64,000 bases of DNA from Kordia jejudonensis (lineage in GTDB: Bacteria > Bacteroidota > Bacteroidia > Flavobacteriales > Flavobacteriaceae), in the NCBI RefSeq assembly GCF_001005315.1, contig NZ_LBMG01000016.1:1-64000 (forward strand). The letters run 5' to 3'. Position 1 is the stretch's first letter. Each line of letters begins with the position of its first letter. The translations under genes were made by a program, and so were the position numbers. The notes below the pieces were generated by a model. It saw only the letters and a list, made by a program, of their open reading frames with translations, was not told where the DNA came from and made no database searches. This document shows, piece by piece, positions 1-9,303 of the stretch.

Positions 1-2881
1 TGTTTCCACATGTATACGCTTGAGCATCAATTACAGCATGCCACAGGAAGCTGGGCGAGCCTATTAGGTTTTGCAGCTTAATTTCATGTGTTGTTTCAGT
101 AGCAACAAAACTAAACCACACATCTGTAAAGTTAGCATTGTTTCCAAAACATTGCAACGAGTTAGAATTTGTTGCATTTACCATTGTTGCAGAAACTACA
201 TTGTTACACGTACCGTCACATACAGGAACGTTGATTGCGTTTACACATGTATCATTTTCAAGAAATCCGCAGTCTGTACTAAAATTAATTCCTGTATCAA
301 CATTAGTCCAATTGGCAGTACTGTATGCAACATCATCCACTTGTACACAGGCTAAATTTGGTGTATTTGTAGCGAGAAAGAAAGAAAGGTTAGAGTTATT
401 ACCATTTTGCATATTTACACTTGTTAATAAAGAACTGTCTTGGCATAAAAAGCTTATAAGATTTGTATTATTGGATGCATCTAAAGTTGTGAGTTGACTT
501 CCAGCAATATTCAATCTTTCTAGTGCTAAATTAATCGACAAATTAATGGTTGTTATGGGACAATTTACAATACTTAAATTATCTAGCATTAGGTTATTTG
601 ACAAATCGATACTTGATATTTGCGTAAAACCAACATTTAATGTTTCTAAGTTTGTGTTAGCAGTCACATCGACACTTGATACTTGATTATTATTATTAAT
701 TTCCAATTCTCTTAACATCAAATTTTGACTCACATCTATAGAAGTGAGTTGATTATTCCAAGCTTCTATATCTTCTAAAGCGGCATTTTGTGTGAGGTCT
801 AAACTCGTTATTTGATTGTAGTATATATCTAATTTTCTAATAAGTACATTTTGAGTAATATTTAAAGTTGATATGTTATTATTATTTATTCTAAAATCCT
901 CTAATGCTACGTTTTGCGTAATATCTATACTTGTTAATTGATTGTTTGAAGCATATAGCGTTCTTAATGCAGTAAAATCTTCTATTCCAGTTAAGTCAGC
1001 AATGTTATCATTTGACACATCAATTCCAGTAATTGAATTGATATTTGCGGTGGTTACGTAATTATCCAATATTGTATCATATCCTTGATTAATTAGGTAT
1101 TGTTCAAAATTATCATCTGGCACGAAGGTTTGCCCAGGAATTGTTATTTGGTGTTCCTTTAAACAAAACGAAATATCTCTGTACGAATCTTCTACATTAC
1201 CAGCCGCCGTACCAGAGTTAATTATAAATACCCAATCATAAATTTGAATAATCAATTCATCTCCTACGTCCCATCCTGATAAGATGGTATTGTCTGGTGC
1301 AATTGTATCTGCACAGGTAATTTCATTTCCTGCGGTATCTCTAATAATAATTCCTGGATTTTCTGTGAGTCCCGTCCATGACAAAGCATTTGTTGTTGCT
1401 GTCCATGTAAAAAACTGATCATATCCTGTATTTGCGCCATTACACGTTCCGTCTAGTCCGCTATCTGTCGTTCCATCCGAGCTAAAAAACAGTGTGGTTT
1501 CAGTACAGTCGTCTGCAAGAGCCGTAGGTGTTATAGGAGTTGCTCCTGAGAGTATATTATTTGTTGGTGTTTCGTATTCTCTCAAGCAAAATGTAAGTGC
1601 ATCATAGTGATAATTCTCATAGTTAAATAGTTGAATAATTAAGTCTTCTCCTATTTCCCAACCACTAAGTTTCACAGGATCTCCTTGATTTGTTACAATG
1701 CATCCATACTCTACACCTGTCGTGCTGCGAACTGAAATCCCTATGTTGTCTGGATTTTGTCCCCAAAGTAAACCTCCAGAAGTTGCTGTCCATGTAAAAA
1801 ATTGGTCTACACCAGTATCGTTACCAACACAAGTATCCATTCCACTGTCTGTTGTAGTGTATGTATTTGTATTTAGAAATAGAGTTTGATTGTTTGTAGT
1901 TATGGTACAATCGCTTCCTGCCAAACCTGGTACGATTGGAATTGCGCCTGCAGGTAAATCATTATTTGGAGTTGAGAATGATTTTTCTTCTAAACAGAAT
2001 CGTGCATCTGCAATTCCTGAAAAACCTTCTGATTTATATATTTGAATAATTAGATTATCTCCTACATTCCATCCAGTAAATATTCCATCATTGTTATCTA
2101 ATGCTTTAGAACAATCTATAATTTCATAAGGCGCAGTTGCGTTTCTAATAATCATTCCTGCTCGTCCCACAAAAGAAGGCGTGCTGTATTTTAAACCGTT
2201 GGTTGTTGCTGTCCATGTAAAGAATTGATCTATTCCTTCAAAATCACCATTTAGACATCCGCCCAAACCGCTATCTGTAGTTCCCGAATTTGTAAAATCG
2301 AGATCAAATGTATATCCACTACTTGGACAACCTGTTCCTGCTACCGAAGGAACTATTGGAACAGCTAAAGCAATGGTATTTGGAGTTGCTACATTTGGCA
2401 CACAAGAAACATTCATATCTACCGTACCTGTATCCGTAGAGTTGTATCCTGTAATGGTAATATAATATGTTGTTGTTCCGTCAGATTCAAAGGTTCCGTA
2501 GGAGCGAAATCCTGGTCCGCATACAGCATCATTAAAATCATTAGCCGCTACTAATGTCAAGTTTCCTGATGTTCCTGTATATACTAAATATGAAGTATCA
2601 TATCCTGATGCACATAAATCTAAAGTTACAGTTTCTGGAGTTCCTGAACCTGTGTACGAATACCAAATGTTTGGAGCATCTAAATCTACCGCTTGCGGAG
2701 TAGTAGCATCTGGTGCGTTGTCTTCATCAATGGTTGCTGTAATTGTAGTAGCGGTGTAATTGTTTCCGCAAGTTACTGAAATGGCATTTGCAAAATTATC
2801 ATTTACAGGTTGCGCTACTGTTTTGTGTATCCAAAAGATGTTTGTAAAAATTAGAAATGTAAGTAGTAATTTTAATCTCAT
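1..2881 (-). CDS. Large secreted protein with three repeated modules and leucine-rich repeats (C-terminus cut by window edge)
   Basis: The reading frame is open from an ATG at 2881 to the left edge, about 960 residues, with no stop in the window. It begins with a signal peptide (MRLKLLLTFLIFTNIFWIHKTVAQ region, about 24 residues). A beta-sandwich-like domain with a PVNDNFANAISVTCG start follows (to about residue 155). Next come three tandem modules of about 130 residues (about 164-294, 303-436, 444-578). Each carries TDSGL, a QFFTWTAT core, a WxxGxxLIIQI strand and a closing FCL(R/K)E. Residues about 588-815 form irregular leucine-rich repeats (LTSID(I/V)(T/S)QN type), introduced by VPDDNFEQYLINQGYDT as in many flavobacterial LRR surface proteins. 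After the LRRs a second sandwich domain (CVNAINVPVCDGTC, WFSFVATE) begins. I expect export by the Sec system and probably a T9SS sorting domain beyond the edge, which cannot be seen. Function is likely adhesion or surface binding; the substrate is unknown. Confidence 0.85.
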   Translation of the reverse strand, partial: MRLKLLLTFLIFTNIFWIHKTVAQPVNDNFANAISVTCGNNYTATTITATIDEDNAPDATTPQAVDLDAPNIWYSYTGSGTPETVTLDLCASGYDTSYLVYTGTSGNLTLVAANDFNDAVCGPGFRSYGTFESDGTTTYYITITGYNSTDTGTVDMNVSCVPNVATPNTIALAVPIVPSVAGTGCPSSGYTFDLDFTNSGTTDSGLGGCLNGDFEGIDQFFTWTATTNGLKYSTPSFVGRAGMIIRNATAPYEIIDCSKALDNNDGIFTGWNVGDNLIIQIYKSEGFSGIADARFCLEEKSFSTPNNDLPAGAIPIVPGLAGSDCTITTNNQTLFLNTNTYTTTDSGMDTCVGNDTGVDQFFTWTATSGGLLWGQNPDNIGISVRSTTGVEYGCIVTNQGDPVKLSGWEIGEDLIIQLFNYENYHYDALTFCLREYETPTNNILSGATPITPTALADDCTETTLFFSSDGTTDSGLDGTCNGANTGYDQFFTWTATTNALSWTGLTENPGIIIRDTAGNEITCADTIAPDNTILSGWDVGDELIIQIYDWVFIINSGTAAGNVEDSYRDISFCLKEHQITIPGQTFVPDDNFEQYLINQGYDTILDNYVTTANINSITGIDVSNDNIADLTGIEDFTALRTLYASNNQLTSIDITQNVALEDFRINNNNISTLNITQNVLIRKLDIYYNQITSLDLTQNAALEDIEAWNNQLTSIDVSQNLMLRELEINNNNQVSSVDVTANTNLETLNVGFTQISSIDLSNNLMLDNLSIVNCPITTINLSINLALERLNIAGSQLTTLDASNNTNLISFLCQDSSLLTSVNMQNGNNSNLSFFLATNTPNLACVQVDDVAYSTANWTNVDTGINFSTDCGFLENDTCVNAINVPVCDGTCNNVVSATMVNATNSNSLQCFGNNANFTDVWFSFVATETTHEIKLQNLIGSPSFLWHAVIDAQAYTCGN

Positions 2882-3112
2882 TTAAAATGATTTAATTGGT
2901 TCGTTACAATGCATATAAAATCTTATCTGCTAAAGTAAATTAGAAGTTAGCATACATTGAGTTCATAATTTTTCATAGTGTAAAATGGCGTATTGAACAA
3001 ATGTGCTCAGGGGAGAGATTTGCTGTTGCGAAAATACCTAAACTTCATTAGTTTTTATGTATTACAGCGATTAATTTACTCGTAATTTACAAATATCGAT
3101 TGCTTATTTCAT

Positions 3113-3150
3113 AGAAGAGTCGTTTCATACGTACATGAAACGACTCTTCT
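3113..3150 (-). terminator. Perfect 16-bp-arm hairpin after the GH9 gene
   Basis: Arms at 3113-3128 and 3135-3150 are perfectly complementary around a 6-nt loop. The hairpin lies 22 bp beyond the stop of the glycosidase gene transcribed toward it. No long U-tract follows, so termination is inferred from the stem and its position. Confidence 0.6.
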
Positions 3151-3172
3151 ACTAAACAAATTGGCACGAACT

Positions 3173-5803
3173 TTACCGAATGTTTACTTCTTTTGTGATA
3201 ATATCATTGTCTAAGTTTACTTTTAGAATATAAATACCTTCACTTAAAAATTCTGTAGCTATTTGAATACTATTTTTATTAAATGTTGTGTCCATCGCGA
3301 TGTTAATTCTTCTTCCATTGATGTCATATAACAATGCTTCATTAAAGTTTTTCCCTTGATTCCACTTGATGGTAAAGATTCCTTCATTCGGATTTGGAAA
3401 GACTGCAATATTTGCAACGTCATCAACTTGATTTTCTGGAACACTTAATGTCAATTCAGGATTGAATAGTGTGTTTAAGTATCCATAAATCATCATAGTT
3501 TGCACCGTATTTTGATGAATGGTAAATTCTGATTGCAAGAAGTATACACGCGCGTCTAAGTTCATTTCCATATATGGCCAATCGTCAATTGGTGGCGACA
3601 TGATGAAGTCTTCTTTTTTGTCTAAACTGTGTGTATATAATGGAATTCCTGGAATGGCATTTCCAGCGTTATTAATTGCCGCATCATGTAATGTTTCTCG
3701 CGAATAACGTTCGGCGCCAAATACATCCGCTCTTGTAATGTATACTTTGTTTTCAGGATTTCCGCCCAACATCATATCATTGCTTGATAGTATTTTGTTT
3801 AATAAGGTTTGATCTCCTGTATGATGATACGACATAATTTGCGGAATGACTTGCGGTGTTGAACCCGTAGTACCAAGAATTGGCGGTTGATATTGTGATT
3901 TGATGAATCGGATTGGTTTCATGGTAATATCATTTGTTCCCCAAACATCGCTCCAGTAATGAATTGCTTGAATTTGTGTGTTTTTTAGATTGATGGCATC
4001 ATTGTCAAAGTTGTTCCATTTATCATTCGGAATTAAGCTGAAAATCCAATTTGCTAATGCTTCATCATGTATTTGATATTCGTATAGAAAAGTTGTAGCC
4101 GTTGTGACAACTGTATTGTTTTTGTAATAGTCTAAATATTCTTGTCCGCCCGTAACACTGTACAAAGCAGAAGCTGCCATTAGTTTTAAGTCTTTTACTT
4201 TTCCTGCATATCCAATTCCTTGAAAAAGCTGTTCCAAGTCTGTTGCTGTAGCGTTGTTATTTGCCCAAACATATGCAGCGATAGCTTCACTTTTGTATAA
4301 ATCTGCCTGATTGTTTGGATCGCCAGCAATGTCTAACGCAGCTGAAAATAATGCTGCTGCGGTAGCATATGTATAGGAAGCCGCAGGATCTTCTTTGTAG
4401 ACATACCACATTTGTTCCGATGAAGAATTGCCAGAACCATCATTGTACGAAGGTCCGTAATATCCGTTTGTTTCTTTTCCGCCACAGATGCCACCAGTTG
4501 GCCCTTTTGTTCGTTTGAAAAAGTCTAACGTCCATTGCACTTCATCCAACACATCTGGAACTCCATTATTACTTTCTGGAATGTTCAGTTGTCCGTCTAA
4601 AAATCCGCCAGGTGCCAATTGATAGAAAAGCGATGCATAAATTGGTAAGTTAAGATGTTGAATATACACATCAAAGTCGCCCGCGTCAAAATGTCCGCCA
4701 CTTCCCCAAGGCATTCCGTCAGGTGAAGTCATCCACGCTGGTTGATTTGTTGGGTTTATGAATGAAGTTGCCTGCGCTGGTAATTGTACAAAGCTTTCTT
4801 GATCGCCATTTATATTGTCCATGCGTCTGTAATTGGAATAGGTAATTTGAAAATTATCAACTCCTGGTGTGTGATCTACAGGTTTTAGAAATGGCGCATA
4901 TTCATTGCCACGATCAAATCCGCTACGTTGGTATAATAAACTATTGGCAACTGATTTGTAAATTTGGTCATAGGCTTTGTTTGATATTTTGAATGGAAAT
5001 GAACTTCCAATACCTTCAATTACAATTTTGTATTCTTCATTTTCATCTACAGGAATTGTGTTTCCTACTGCTGAGAATTCAAATTGCCACATGGGCGAAT
5101 TGTACCAATATTTAGTCGCAAAGTTTTCTGAATAATCCGCTAATGTGTTTGGCGCTTTGAATTGTAAACCATCAGTTCCTGTTCCGGTGTATATAATTTG
5201 ATTGTCTGAAACCCGCACTACATGACCTGTTGCGCCTTCAAAACTTGAAAAGTCTTCAAAGTGACTGTTGCTAAAATTATTTTTTCCTAACCATTGTGAA
5301 ATGTATGCAAATTTTTCTGTCGCACTCGGAATCATTCCAACTTGATTGACATGAATACTTTCAGAAAAGTTAGCGAATGCATCAAAAGTTAAGGTGTACG
5401 AACTTTGTTGTGTATTGATATTGGACACATTTACGGTGTATGTTTTGCCGTTTTCCATCGGATTTGGCAATCGGACATATACATAATAGTCTTGCAACGC
5501 TACTTGTTCTTTTGCTTTAAAGAATGTTGCCGTAGCTTGTTGCGCTGTGTTGTAAAATGTATCATCGGTACTTGTAATGCTGAAATTGGCAGGCAGTAAC
5601 GCTTGCGCTTCGTCAATTTGACCGTAATAGACAGCATTTGGCGCACTGTAAAAGTAGAATTCATCAAAGTTTGTGAAATCTTTTTCGCCTTCATCAAATC
5701 GTAATAAAATGGTGTTATTACTAACAGGCGTTATGGACGTAAGTTGCTGTGAAAATATTAAGATGGGAAATAAGCAACTTATTAGATATGTAATATTTTT
5801 CAT
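3173..5803 (-). CDS. Secreted glycoside hydrolase family 9 with T9SS sorting domain
   Basis: The 876-residue protein is a predicted cellulase-type (GH9) glycosidase hydrolysing beta-1,4-glucans or related polysaccharides outside the cell. Visible layout: signal peptide 1-19; an extra N-terminal beta domain to about 140; a cellulase N-terminal Ig-like domain about 145-280 (HVNQVGM start); an (alpha/alpha)6 catalytic domain about 285-785; and a T9SS type A sorting domain 799-876 (VFPNPNEGIF ... GIYILKV). Catalytic features are GGHFDAGDFD at 369-378 (the family's Asp pair and base), NGVPDVLDEVQW at 413-424, and SEFTIHQN at 758-765, where Glu759 fits the general acid. The GH9 pattern near LGGNP is also present (679-683). 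It stands alone, with no SusCD or other polysaccharide genes adjacent. Exact substrate specificity cannot be read from the sequence. Confidence 0.9.
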   Translation of the reverse strand: MKNITYLISCLFPILIFSQQLTSITPVSNNTILLRFDEGEKDFTNFDEFYFYSAPNAVYYGQIDEAQALLPANFSITSTDDTFYNTAQQATATFFKAKEQVALQDYYVYVRLPNPMENGKTYTVNVSNINTQQSSYTLTFDAFANFSESIHVNQVGMIPSATEKFAYISQWLGKNNFSNSHFEDFSSFEGATGHVVRVSDNQIIYTGTGTDGLQFKAPNTLADYSENFATKYWYNSPMWQFEFSAVGNTIPVDENEEYKIVIEGIGSSFPFKISNKAYDQIYKSVANSLLYQRSGFDRGNEYAPFLKPVDHTPGVDNFQITYSNYRRMDNINGDQESFVQLPAQATSFINPTNQPAWMTSPDGMPWGSGGHFDAGDFDVYIQHLNLPIYASLFYQLAPGGFLDGQLNIPESNNGVPDVLDEVQWTLDFFKRTKGPTGGICGGKETNGYYGPSYNDGSGNSSSEQMWYVYKEDPAASYTYATAAALFSAALDIAGDPNNQADLYKSEAIAAYVWANNNATATDLEQLFQGIGYAGKVKDLKLMAASALYSVTGGQEYLDYYKNNTVVTTATTFLYEYQIHDEALANWIFSLIPNDKWNNFDNDAINLKNTQIQAIHYWSDVWGTNDITMKPIRFIKSQYQPPILGTTGSTPQVIPQIMSYHHTGDQTLLNKILSSNDMMLGGNPENKVYITRADVFGAERYSRETLHDAAINNAGNAIPGIPLYTHSLDKKEDFIMSPPIDDWPYMEMNLDARVYFLQSEFTIHQNTVQTMMIYGYLNTLFNPELTLSVPENQVDDVANIAVFPNPNEGIFTIKWNQGKNFNEALLYDINGRRINIAMDTTFNKNSIQIATEFLSEGIYILKVNLDNDIITKEVNIR

Positions 5804-5906
5804 AGGCTTCCTTTTTCTATTAAAGATACGAATTGTTTAAATCCGCAAGAATAGAATTGGGAATTTTTTAACCAAAGTATTTGATTATCAAACCTATAAA
5901 TAAAAT

Positions 5907-6428
5907 TTATGATGTATATTCTAAAACGGTTGGTTGTGGTAAAAACAACTCTATTAAGAATACCAAACTGTCTCTGGATATGATTGTAATGGAGATTAAA
6001 ATGGTACTGAGTAGTATTGCGACAGCTAAGTTATTTTTTTTCAACTCGCCTACTTCATCTACATGTTTTGTGAGCGATTTTGCCAACATGAACGAACTGA
6101 AATGAATTAATCCTGCTAATAAGAATCCTACAAATAATGATAAGGAAGAGTATTTTAAGATTTCTACAAATAGGTTTTCTTTGGCATGAATTTTCAACAT
6201 TTCTATCGCACTGATTATTGACGGAATGATGCCACTTAGCAAATATCCTGTACTGAATATAATTCCTGAAAAGAAGATACTTAGTGCCAAGTTGGAATCG
6301 TTTAGGTTTTCTTCTTTTAGTTTGAAAATTTTGATCAATACTTTGTATGAGATAAAGAATATGATGATGGCAAGCACAATGGACAATACCAATTGACTAA
6401 GAGCAAGATAAAGTAGTTCTGTATTCAT
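5907..6428 (-). CDS. DUF350-like integral membrane protein
   Basis: The protein has 173 residues with about five hydrophobic segments (about 8-30, 48-70, 88-112 and two near 130-160). Two related patches, DSNLALSIFFSG and KKNNLAVAILLS, resemble the internal duplication typical of DUF350 membrane proteins. Those often accompany transglutaminase-like or glutathionylspermidine-synthase-like genes. Here the gene follows a membrane-anchored transglutaminase-fold gene by 13 bp, so the two are probably co-transcribed. The biochemical role of DUF350 proteins is not established. No signal peptide or catalytic motif is seen. Confidence 0.7.
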   Translation of the reverse strand: MNTELLYLALSQLVLSIVLAIIIFFISYKVLIKIFKLKEENLNDSNLALSIFFSGIIFSTGYLLSGIIPSIISAIEMLKIHAKENLFVEILKYSSLSLFVGFLLAGLIHFSSFMLAKSLTKHVDEVGELKKNNLAVAILLSTILISITIISRDSLVFLIELFLPQPTVLEYTS

Positions 6429-6441
6429 GAGATTTCTTTTT

Positions 6442-7488
6442 TTAATTGACTAACACAAAGTCCCAATAACGCAAGCTTGATACGTCTTTAGGTAGATATC
6501 CTATTGGACAACCTTTGGCAGTAGTTTCTACGAAATAATATTTTTTTCTGTTGTATGTTTTGTATTTTCCTCGTGCAGGCACATTGATTCCTAATACCGA
6601 ATGTTTGTATTCATCACTGTTTAGAATGGCAACGTCATAATTAAATTTTGATAGCAATACGAAAAGTAAAACCGTCCGCGAATCGCAATCGCCTTTAAGG
6701 TTTGAGCCAAATTCTACAGGCGCAAATATTCCTAAACGCACATTTCCCACACATGGATAGTCTTCATTTCCATTGCATGGCACCGTTTTTATGTAATTGT
6801 ATTGAATGTTTTGAATGCTGGTAATGATGAATTCGGCAAATTTTTTCCTGTTCATCCTTTTTTCTTGCTGAATTTTACTGAAGGATGTGTACAAATGTTC
6901 TAATAATGGCGCATCATGAGTTGCCATATGTTTGTAAAATTCTCCCCAATTGAAGTTACGCGTTATTGTGTATGCCAATCGATTTCGTTTTGATTTGGGC
7001 ACATTGTCTTTTTCAATTTTGAAATTCATCCGATACCGATCGCCGTCGAAGTCTTTCCAATTCATTTTATTGATAATGTATTCCACTGTTTTTTCTCCTT
7101 CCGTAGTTGTGACAACTTCCGTTTTTTGAGTGTCATCTTCTACTTTAGTGGAATCGTCTTCAATGACATATCCTGCATTTTTCATCAGAATTGTCATGAT
7201 GACTGAAAATAGGATGATAACACCTACTGTTCGTAAGAGATTGTAAAGAATACTTTTGAAAGCACCTGCATTTGATACTGAATTTTGCATTGCTTTTTTC
7301 CAGAGATATCGCACTATAAAGAAGCCGCAGATTGTAATTACTAATAAAGACATGCCTTCTATTTTGACTTCAGTTGCCAAAAAGAATATCACAATTCCCA
7401 AAAAACCTGTAACTATCAACGCCAAACAACCCGAAAAGAGTTTTTGTATGGCTTTGACGCATCCGTGCGGTTTTTTTTGTTCTGTCAT
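6442..7488 (-). CDS. Membrane-anchored transglutaminase-like superfamily protein
   Basis: The protein has 348 residues. Three transmembrane segments (about 20-39, 45-61, 84-103) are followed by a soluble domain. A papain-like transglutaminase triad is visible: Cys268 in KGDCDSRT, His296 in EYKHSVLG, and an acidic third residue at Glu321 in YFVETT. In this superfamily such domains act as cysteine proteases, amidases or peptide cross-linkers. The topology suggests a domain facing the cytoplasm or periplasm next to the inner membrane. The gene forms a likely two-gene operon with the downstream DUF350 protein. The substrate is unknown. Confidence 0.75.
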   Translation of the reverse strand: MTEQKKPHGCVKAIQKLFSGCLALIVTGFLGIVIFFLATEVKIEGMSLLVITICGFFIVRYLWKKAMQNSVSNAGAFKSILYNLLRTVGVIILFSVIMTILMKNAGYVIEDDSTKVEDDTQKTEVVTTTEGEKTVEYIINKMNWKDFDGDRYRMNFKIEKDNVPKSKRNRLAYTITRNFNWGEFYKHMATHDAPLLEHLYTSFSKIQQEKRMNRKKFAEFIITSIQNIQYNYIKTVPCNGNEDYPCVGNVRLGIFAPVEFGSNLKGDCDSRTVLLFVLLSKFNYDVAILNSDEYKHSVLGINVPARGKYKTYNRKKYYFVETTAKGCPIGYLPKDVSSLRYWDFVLVN

Positions 7489-7613
7489 AATGTGTTAAAG
7501 ATACTATCTTTTTTGAGTTTTGAAAATACAATGAATTACTGATTTTTGGACTGGAAAATTTACAGCTAGAATTGTATGAATTTGTATTCCAATTAATTAC
7601 GGTAAAACCATAA

Positions 7614-7642
7614 TTGAGCTATTAAATTTTTTTATAACTTTC
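7614..7642 (+). promoter_or_regulatory. Candidate sigma-A-type promoter for the lanthipeptide-like precursor
   Basis: TTGA at 7614-7617 (-33-like) is followed about 17 bp later by TAACTTTC at 7635-7642, one mismatch from the Bacteroidota -7 consensus TAnnTTTG. It lies 24 bp ahead of the start codon in an A+T-rich divergent spacer. This is a weak, position-supported call. Confidence 0.3.
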
Positions 7643-7665
7643 TGTAAACCAATACATTCAGAATT

Positions 7666-7923
7666 ATGAAAAAAAAGAATTTAAAAAATTTAGTGTTACG
7701 CAAGCAGTCGGTTAGTAATTTAAACCATGTTTCTGGTGGAACTGATGTGGCACAAACTGTTGTAGATATTATTACAACATTGACCAAAATTACACGTGAG
7801 TTTTCGTATTGTCCGCATGTAAGTTGTGGCTGTCCAGATCCGACAATACCAGCATTAACCGAAGGTATTTTGACCTGCAGACGAACTGCTTGTGACGAAT
7901 TGACCTGTGTTACTTGCGCATAA
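7666..7923 (+). CDS. Lanthipeptide-like (RiPP) precursor peptide with Bacteroidota GG leader
   Basis: The gene encodes 85 residues. The leader (1-25) is Lys-rich with the pattern LxLRKQSVSNLNHVSGG, matching the class of Bacteroidota natural-product precursors whose leaders carry KKLxLxKxxVxxL and end in a double glycine. Leader cleavage after Gly25 would give a 60-residue core. The core has seven Cys, all in its last 38 residues (SYC, SCGC, LTC, TAC, LTC, VTC), and many Ser/Thr, which suits thioether rings. No dehydratase (LanB), cyclase (LanC) or peptidase-ABC transporter lies in the window, so the modifying enzymes must act from elsewhere if the peptide is processed. It ends in a strong palindromic terminator. 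The class is assigned from the leader alone; lanthionine formation is inferred. Confidence 0.75.
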   Translation: MKKKNLKNLVLRKQSVSNLNHVSGGTDVAQTVVDIITTLTKITREFSYCPHVSCGCPDPTIPALTEGILTCRRTACDELTCVTCA

Positions 7924-7928
7924 ATACA

Positions 7929-7962
7929 AAAAAACCGCTTACGAATTCGTAAGCGGTTTTTT
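7929..7962. terminator. Bidirectional palindromic terminator shared by RiPP precursor and enolase
   Basis: A 34-bp perfect palindrome centred on GAATTC (between 7945 and 7946) starts with an A-run and ends with a T-run. It sits 6 bp after the precursor stop and 19 bp after the convergent enolase stop, so it can end both transcripts. Confidence 0.9.
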
Positions 7963-7980
7963 GATATATAACTTAATGTG

Positions 7981-9303
<1,323 letters not shown>

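Follow-up and report, generated by a model that had tools for sequence, protein, structure and literature searches.

In this study, we have identified an 85-amino-acid open reading frame (ORF) at positions 7666 to 7923 of a 64,000-nucleotide stretch of Kordia jejudonensis DNA, here called the window, that is probably a class I lanthipeptide-type precursor matured in trans, one of at least 149 precursors dispersed through the genome. The ORF lies on the + strand, starts with ATG, and has the composition that had been predicted for it, since its translation confirmed a 25-amino-acid leader ending in VSGG, a 60-residue core, and seven Cys residues. The leader, MKKKNLKNLVLRKQSVSNLNHVSGG (7666 to 7740, + strand), carries both hallmarks of the Bacteroidetes LxLxKx5L...GG leader class, namely, the motif itself, as LVLRKQSVSNL, and the terminal double Gly in VSGG. 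A genus leader model of 58 rows, to which this leader itself contributes one, gave it 42 bits, and the NCBIfam model NF038153 (lant_leader_L1a) gave the ORF 16.2 bits, which is below the curated cutoff of 22 bits. No Nif11 leader was found; at an E value of ≤10, the searches returned NF038153 from NCBIfam and a weak IBR zinc finger match from Pfam (E value of 0.044, below the cutoff), which was rejected and taken to reflect composition.

The core falls into two parts. The N-terminal part (7741 to 7803, + strand) is Thr rich and free of Cys, and the C-terminal part (7804 to 7920, + strand), in which rings are predicted to form, contains 8 Ser/Thr residues and all seven Cys residues (positions 49, 54, 56, 71, 76, 81, and 84). 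The expectation that the Cys residues would be confined to the end of the core was borne out, but they span the last 37 residues rather than the last 38. Ser or Thr occupies 14 positions of the core; at four of them (53-54, 70-71, 80-81, and 83-84), the residue directly precedes a Cys and would have to pair with another Cys, which speaks against the lanthipeptide reading. The gene converges on the enolase gene (7981 to 9270, − strand), from which it is separated by an inverted repeat (7929 to 7962; 15 pairs, with runs of A and T at its flanks). The hairpin, which one scan scored on the − strand, has a folding energy of −22 kcal/mol (z score, −8.3) and is likely a two-way terminator that could end transcripts of both genes. 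Upstream, a block that is largely kept in the orthologs (7626 to 7652, + strand) is a possible core promoter; a sigma-70 promoter scan of positions 7480 to 8020 returned a single site, on the wrong strand, which was fewer than in shuffled sequences.

The ORF is a real gene and not a product of chance. When 60 genomes were searched with its peptide, matches were obtained in all 11 Kordia genomes, K. jejudonensis included, and in none of the 49 remaining genomes. Orthologs with 73 to 74% identity are present in five of the ten relatives (G001, G002, G003, G005, and G008). In these five genomes and K. jejudonensis, the gene lies in the gap that separates enolase from its neighbor; three further precursors in G001 and a 170-amino-acid ORF in G005 come between enolase and the ortholog. 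No ortholog was present in the stretch of up to 1.5 kb examined beyond enolase in G004, G006, G007, G009, and G010, and elsewhere in these genomes there were only partial matches, with E values of 4.8e−7 or weaker. All seven Cys residues are kept in the six orthologs, even in the G008 copy, which has indels between them. The pN/pS ratio across the six sequences, calculated by dividing proportions averaged over 15 pairs and without a codon model, was 0.23 overall, with values of 0.13 for the leader, 0.46 for the Cys-free part of the core, which changes fastest, and 0.20 for the Cys-rich part. On a LanB tree in which half of the inner forks are weakly supported, the presence and absence of the ORF require about three gains or losses rather than a single gain, which implies that the gene has been lost or transferred at times. 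Such a patchy distribution, with the ORF in 6 of 11 genomes of the genus, is what a decaying copy or a chance frame could also leave behind; that explanation is very improbable, given the pN/pS ratio, the intact frame in all six genomes, the conserved palindrome and block upstream, and the strong terminator hairpin.

The prediction had also placed the modifying and export genes outside the window and had proposed a genome-wide search for them. When the whole genome was searched for LanB, LanC, and C39 peptidases (E value of ≤0.001), matches were obtained only on contigs other than C68, the contig of the window, and all three were found together on contig C143, where their presence supports a RiPP precursor of lanthipeptide type that is matured in trans. 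The case that would have refuted the prediction, a genome devoid of lanthipeptide enzymes, does not apply. C143 encodes a LanC protein (405 amino acids; PF05147, 4.3e−46), in which the AWCYG and CHG zinc-ligand motifs align with those of a solved LanC-like protein, and a split LanB, which comprises an N-terminal part of 751 amino acids and a separate C-terminal part of 305 amino acids on adjacent genes (PF04738, 1.6e−151, and PF14028, 4.1e−73, the latter being the second part). The same contig carries two precursors, an AraC-type regulator with TPRs, an ABC exporter with a C39 peptidase (PF03412, 7.5e−38), and an HlyD-like protein. The PF04738 match is the only one in the genome, and LanB is related to proteins of known structure (9g04, E value of 1.4e−50; NisB 4wd9, 1.1e−24).

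This arrangement is constant in the genus. Each of the 11 Kordia genomes has one LanB, split in every case into neighboring ORFs of 751 to 759 and 300 to 308 amino acids, with a mean column identity of 94% and the gene order LanC-LanB-LanB (C-terminal part); a C39-ABC/HlyD pair is nearby in all eight named Kordia loci. The K. jejudonensis LanB is 87 to 97% identical to those of the eight named Kordia records and 43 to 67% identical to five others, from Lacinutrix, Leptobacterium, two Aquimarina genomes, and Flavobacterium. The precursor itself does not lie beside LanB or LanC, a placement looked for when assigning it to a class I system; it is on C68 and LanB is on C143.

The genome contains four further LanC-like genes besides the one on C143; three of the five have zinc-ligand motifs, and those on C156 and C146 lack them. 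As side observations, the last two encode long LanC-like proteins (5344 to 7221 of locus L112 on C156 and 6732 to 8684 of locus L113 on C146), each next to a similar protein of 293 or 297 amino acids, and the one on C156 also adjoins a 1,733-amino-acid ORF. No LanM synthetase was found among the five LanC-like matches (open frames of 408 to 654 amino acids), all of which scored below the 304-bit LanM cutoff, the best being 279 bits (C2).

The description of the gene as an orphan was correct locally, as it is the sole precursor of its leader type in the window (the leader profile gave no good second precursor at 489 start positions; the next best E value was 2.5), but not for the genome as a whole, where the proposed search for sister leaders yielded over a hundred. 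In the examined stretches of the genome, 146 precursors, the ORF included, have a leader of this type. Membership required a score of at least 20 bits with a profile that had been seeded with 69 sequences, the ORF again among them, from those same stretches, and the set was reached by dropping 16 matches below 20 bits from 162 collapsed matches. The 146 genes are spread over 42 contigs in 78 clusters, of which 44 consist of one gene and 34 are small groups; two of the genes are beside LanB. Another 400 kb of the genome held three more precursors, so that 149 is a minimum. The leader motif is present in 109 of the 146 in its strict form and in 142 in a loose form, and 142 have the double Gly. 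With NF038153, for which 150 of 220 candidates were scored, at least 128 places were matched at an E value of ≤1; at least 27 of these pass the 22-bit cutoff, six of them only together with neighbors in frame, and the ORF at 7666 to 7923 is absent among the matches listed.

Similar numbers were obtained across the genus. A leader model made from an alignment of 58 K. jejudonensis leaders, with at most 150 candidates scored per genome, gave 77 to at least 150 matches per genome in the 11 Kordia genomes at an E value of ≤0.01, with at least 150 in G008; since the model was trained on K. jejudonensis, the other ten genomes are independent cases. Five non-Kordia genomes had 11, 7, 1, 5, and 0 matches at the same threshold. 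In G009, 400 kb of sequence taken at even steps contained 13 precursors, from which a rough extrapolation gives about 160 precursors per genome.

The leader type is linked to LanB in several ways. Precursors close to LanB have a profile-matched leader (E value of <1e−4) in all eight named Kordia loci, in Lacinutrix, in Leptobacterium, and in both Aquimarina loci, and all five LanB-proximal leaders that were checked for the motif fit LxLxKx5(L/I); in the Flavobacterium LanB locus, the leader profile found no match (best E value of 0.44). Among 295 genomes of the class, LanB is present in 14 of 16 leader-positive genomes compared with 31 of 295 overall (Fisher's exact test, 9e−14, uncorrected for relatedness, with the LanB and leader scans assumed to cover the same draw of genomes). 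The two leader-positive genomes without a LanB match are G110 (21 leader matches; 72% complete) and G113 (99% complete). Conversely, no leader match was obtained in 17 of the 31 genomes with LanB, which shows that LanB serves other leaders too.

Co-occurrence of the leader and LanB across the class also bears on whether another enzyme might modify a leader-guided peptide of this kind. The genome has a LanC with a nucleotidyltransferase on C160, a class V-like set of a kinase, a HopA1 protein, and a LanC on C2, and three SPASM matches, of which a radical SAM SPASM enzyme could make Cys thioethers; all of these candidate maturases are at hand, and the lack of a maturase gene beside the ORF makes proximity indecisive between them. 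Four leader-type precursors flank the C160 LanC, another lies about 5 kb from the SPASM match on C145, and both LanC with nucleotidyltransferase and radical SAM peptides are reported in Kordia in the accessible part of one survey (PMC11118758). The class V-like set, however, adjoins Cys-rich ORFs of its own that lack this leader type, and the leader travels with LanB; we consider modification of the peptide by one of these other enzymes unlikely, and LanB with LanC the preferred pair.

The cores themselves are consistent with lanthionine chemistry. The 134 nonredundant cores of the genome (146 minus four without GG and 8 near-copies) resemble LANTHIPEPTIDE cores, as Cys, Thr, and Ser make up 12.1%, 12.2%, and 7.2% of them, respectively, compared with 0.69% Cys and 6.95% Thr in the 36 window ORFs of at least 200 amino acids. 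Every one of the 134 cores has at least two Cys residues, whereas all 134 leaders together have one, and Ser/Thr residues are at least as numerous as Cys residues in 132 of the 134. Relative to Cys, Ser/Thr residues are in excess at −3, −4, −5, and −6 (z scores of 4.0, 3.4, 4.6, and 2.5) and scarce at −7 (−2.1), −2 (−3.2), and +1 (−5.5). The strongest spacing signal, however, is Ser/Thr two residues after Cys (+2; z score of 9.4), which lanthionine chemistry does not itself predict; we conjecture that CPT/CPS repeats account for part of it. These z scores, obtained with Cys held fixed and the other residues shuffled, are descriptive, as related cores are still in the set.

Many bacteriocins have a double-Gly leader that is cut off by the exporter and are otherwise unmodified. 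Since the double-Gly leader and a C39-ABC exporter are both present here, the peptide could likewise be cleaved at GG, exported as it is, and form disulfides or keep free thiols outside the cell. The number of Cys residues speaks against this, being odd (seven) in all six orthologs and odd in 66 and even in 68 of the 134 cores, a distribution that fits thioethers better than disulfides; the precursors next to LanB, moreover, have the same leader type. An unmodified peptide is thus improbable, and a thioether-bearing one is preferred.

The Thr-rich, Cys-free first part of the core had been regarded as an odd layout, a view that the wider comparison does not support: this part (GGTDxI...) recurs in precursors at seven loci (L008, L014, L015, L018, L019, L020, and L023) from seven other Kordia genomes. 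All seven also carry the palindrome described below; they were picked for similarity to the 7666-7923 peptide and are therefore relatives rather than independent cases. The Thr-rich part could serve as a spacer, form a membrane-active helix, or take part in recognition as a second element.

A second feature shared by a subset of the genes is an upstream palindrome. When the six orthologous upstream regions were aligned, TTACGG-N5-CCGTAA was found 68 to 70 bp before the ATG in diverged surroundings. In K. jejudonensis it occupies 7597 to 7613 (17 bp, 11 of 12 positions matched, 69 bp before the ATG), is a putative regulator-binding site, and is the only site with at most one mismatch in the window, where 0.07 would be expected. 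A site with at least 10 of 12 matches stands within 55 to 85 bp of the ATG in 13 of the other 145 precursors; together with the ORF, 14 of 146 precursors are so marked, compared with 0.03 in mononucleotide shuffles, and three such sites occur elsewhere in the 300-bp upstream regions. An exact search for ACGG..CCGT identified 6 of the 146, one of them with the match far upstream, and the only k-mers enriched upstream of the precursors were A/T-rich words. In 927 kb of examined sequence (overlaps included), 23 distinct sites had at least 11 of 12 matches, and 21 of them, six being the orthologs, are followed at 50 to 109 bp by an ORF whose start is leader-like, although the ORF at one locus (L154) scores only 6.7 bits; this sample is biased, because the loci were mostly chosen for holding precursors. 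The other two sites are 73 to 74 bp before small ORFs that start with MLxxILxxKGVxxLxK, one with and one without GG. Sites of this kind stand upstream of small peptide genes whose leader-like starts are of two types, as seen at 7597 to 7613 of the window, 270 to 286 of L128, and 6653 to 6669 of L143.

A control of 800 kb in 20-kb stretches, of which 400 kb came from even steps in G009 and 400 kb from 20 contigs of K. jejudonensis, gave three sites with at least 11 of 12 matches, all in K. jejudonensis and none in G009; this number does not clearly exceed that for shuffled half-sites, which gave a mean of 1.4 (range, 0 to 10; 29 shuffles, one drawn twice). The K. jejudonensis part was placed away from stretches examined earlier and is thus not a random draw. 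The only perfect control site is 68 bp before a previously unrecognized precursor, and the other two have no leader-like ORF within 150 bp. Sites with 10 of 12 matches showed no excess (24 sites, compared with a shuffled mean of 21.6), so that sites of this quality are meaningful only through their position. No site with at least 11 of 12 matches was found in the LanB loci examined, and a literature search on the half-sites returned no bacterial peptide regulon among the titles of the matches listed. We infer that the palindrome is an operator through which some of the leader-bearing peptide genes are controlled, and its presence upstream of the ORF and 13 sisters suggests that these form a coregulated subset.

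We postulate that the gene has a promoter of its own, from which it is transcribed by itself and under control through the palindrome, and that the leader of its product would be bound by the sole LanB, encoded on C143. LanB and its separate elimination subunit would then dehydrate Ser and Thr residues of the core, and LanC would add Cys thiols to form thioether rings in the C-terminal part, after which the C39-ABC exporter and its HlyD-like partner could cut behind the double Gly of VSGG and secrete the product. The library of cores would in this way become many different secreted cyclic peptides made by one set of enzymes. As to what such peptides do, competition or signaling is a guess.

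These features recall several known systems. The sections of PMC7268733 that deal with class I clusters of Bacteroidetes describe an LxLxKx5L leader motif, a terminal GG, and a C39 peptidase in precursors within seven genes of LanC, 62% of which are alone in their cluster. The Kordia gene resembles those precursors in its leader motif, its terminal GG, and its association with a C39 peptidase and LanB/LanC; unlike them, as they appear in that source, it has over a hundred sisters and lies on a contig other than that of LanB. The comparison with pinensins, which the prediction had recommended, holds for the split LanB, which is reported in part of the same survey for these peptides of Chitinophaga, a member of the same phylum. 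The prochlorosins of picocyanobacteria, as portrayed in the available text of PMC10783134, share a conserved leader, a double Gly, variable cores, scattered genes, and a single promiscuous synthetase, whose action on all of the precursors is inferred in Kordia. By that account, prochlorosins have Nif11 leaders and are made by a LanM of class II whose zinc motif is CCG, whereas Kordia combines a class I split LanB with a LanC in which the motif is CHG, and its leader is short and Lys rich. The Kordia system would work like that of the prochlorosins but lacks their defining LanM and Nif11 leader. Pinensins, for their part, have a clustered precursor and a short core, in contrast to the dispersed precursor and long core in Kordia.

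It is about an even chance, in our estimation, that Kordia is a class I counterpart of the prochlorosin producers, in which a split LanB, a LanC, and a C39 exporter serve some 80 to 190 precursors per genome (the upper figure being extrapolated), the precursors turn over fast between species, and a palindromic operator switches a sublibrary, the ORF included, independently of the enzymes.

Previous accounts of Kordia differ in emphasis. In the portion of PMC11118758 available, Kordia is rich in RiPPs, with lanthipeptide and radical SAM precursors, and up to 176 RiPP precursors are given for a Bacteroidota genome; the terms "LanB," "dispers," and "in trans" are absent from its main text. Parts of PMC10734526 likewise describe Kordia as rich in RiPPs, and the Kordia-specific cluster depicted there is proteusin-like; excerpts of PMC7477175 give nine clusters for K. 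antarctica, one of them for a lanthipeptide, whereas in a passage of PMC13101523 the main products of Kordia are said to be nonribosomal peptides. In the portions of the literature searched, supplements aside, we found no statement of a layout with one LanB and over 100 precursors or of the palindrome. Mining near LanB or LanC alone would miss most of these precursors, as 2 of the 146 are beside LanB and four beside the C160 LanC.

If the Kordia LanB accepts these cores, it would be a class I dehydratase of natural promiscuity, and its substrates would outnumber the prochlorosin precursors of the first description, of which there were 29 according to part of PMC12328550. Such an enzyme could be used for cyclic-peptide libraries and would address the question of how leader-guided enzymes tolerate almost any core, and the palindrome-marked subset would offer a switchable, measurable test case for the purpose of peptide libraries.

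Several other loci of the genome deserve mention. On C160, a LanC and a nucleotidyltransferase (2746 to 4966 of locus L064) stand without LanB amid four precursors. On C2, positions 2104 to 7522 of locus L111 include a 478-amino-acid ORF (2594 to 4030) with 48 Cys, 79 Thr, and no Lys residues and with repeats such as GPTGTQGCT and NAQAQ, which had no Pfam or NCBIfam match at an E value of ≤0.1. Its neighbors are a 134-amino-acid ORF ending in SICGCGQCGK, a HopA1-domain protein (PF17914), and LanC, and an LxmK-like kinase of the locus matched NF038156 with an E value of 1e−18, far under the cutoff. The locus resembles a class V-like lanthipeptide set whose substrate would be giant and repetitive, a likeness based on the class V parts described in the consulted portion of PMC9486802. 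Finally, short repeats occur within the cores of some precursors (1501 to 1761 of L043, L033, and L058; CPSDFCPSNGC..., CPTRFCPTKFNCPT..., and PILTPAC...), which are possible many-ring peptides.
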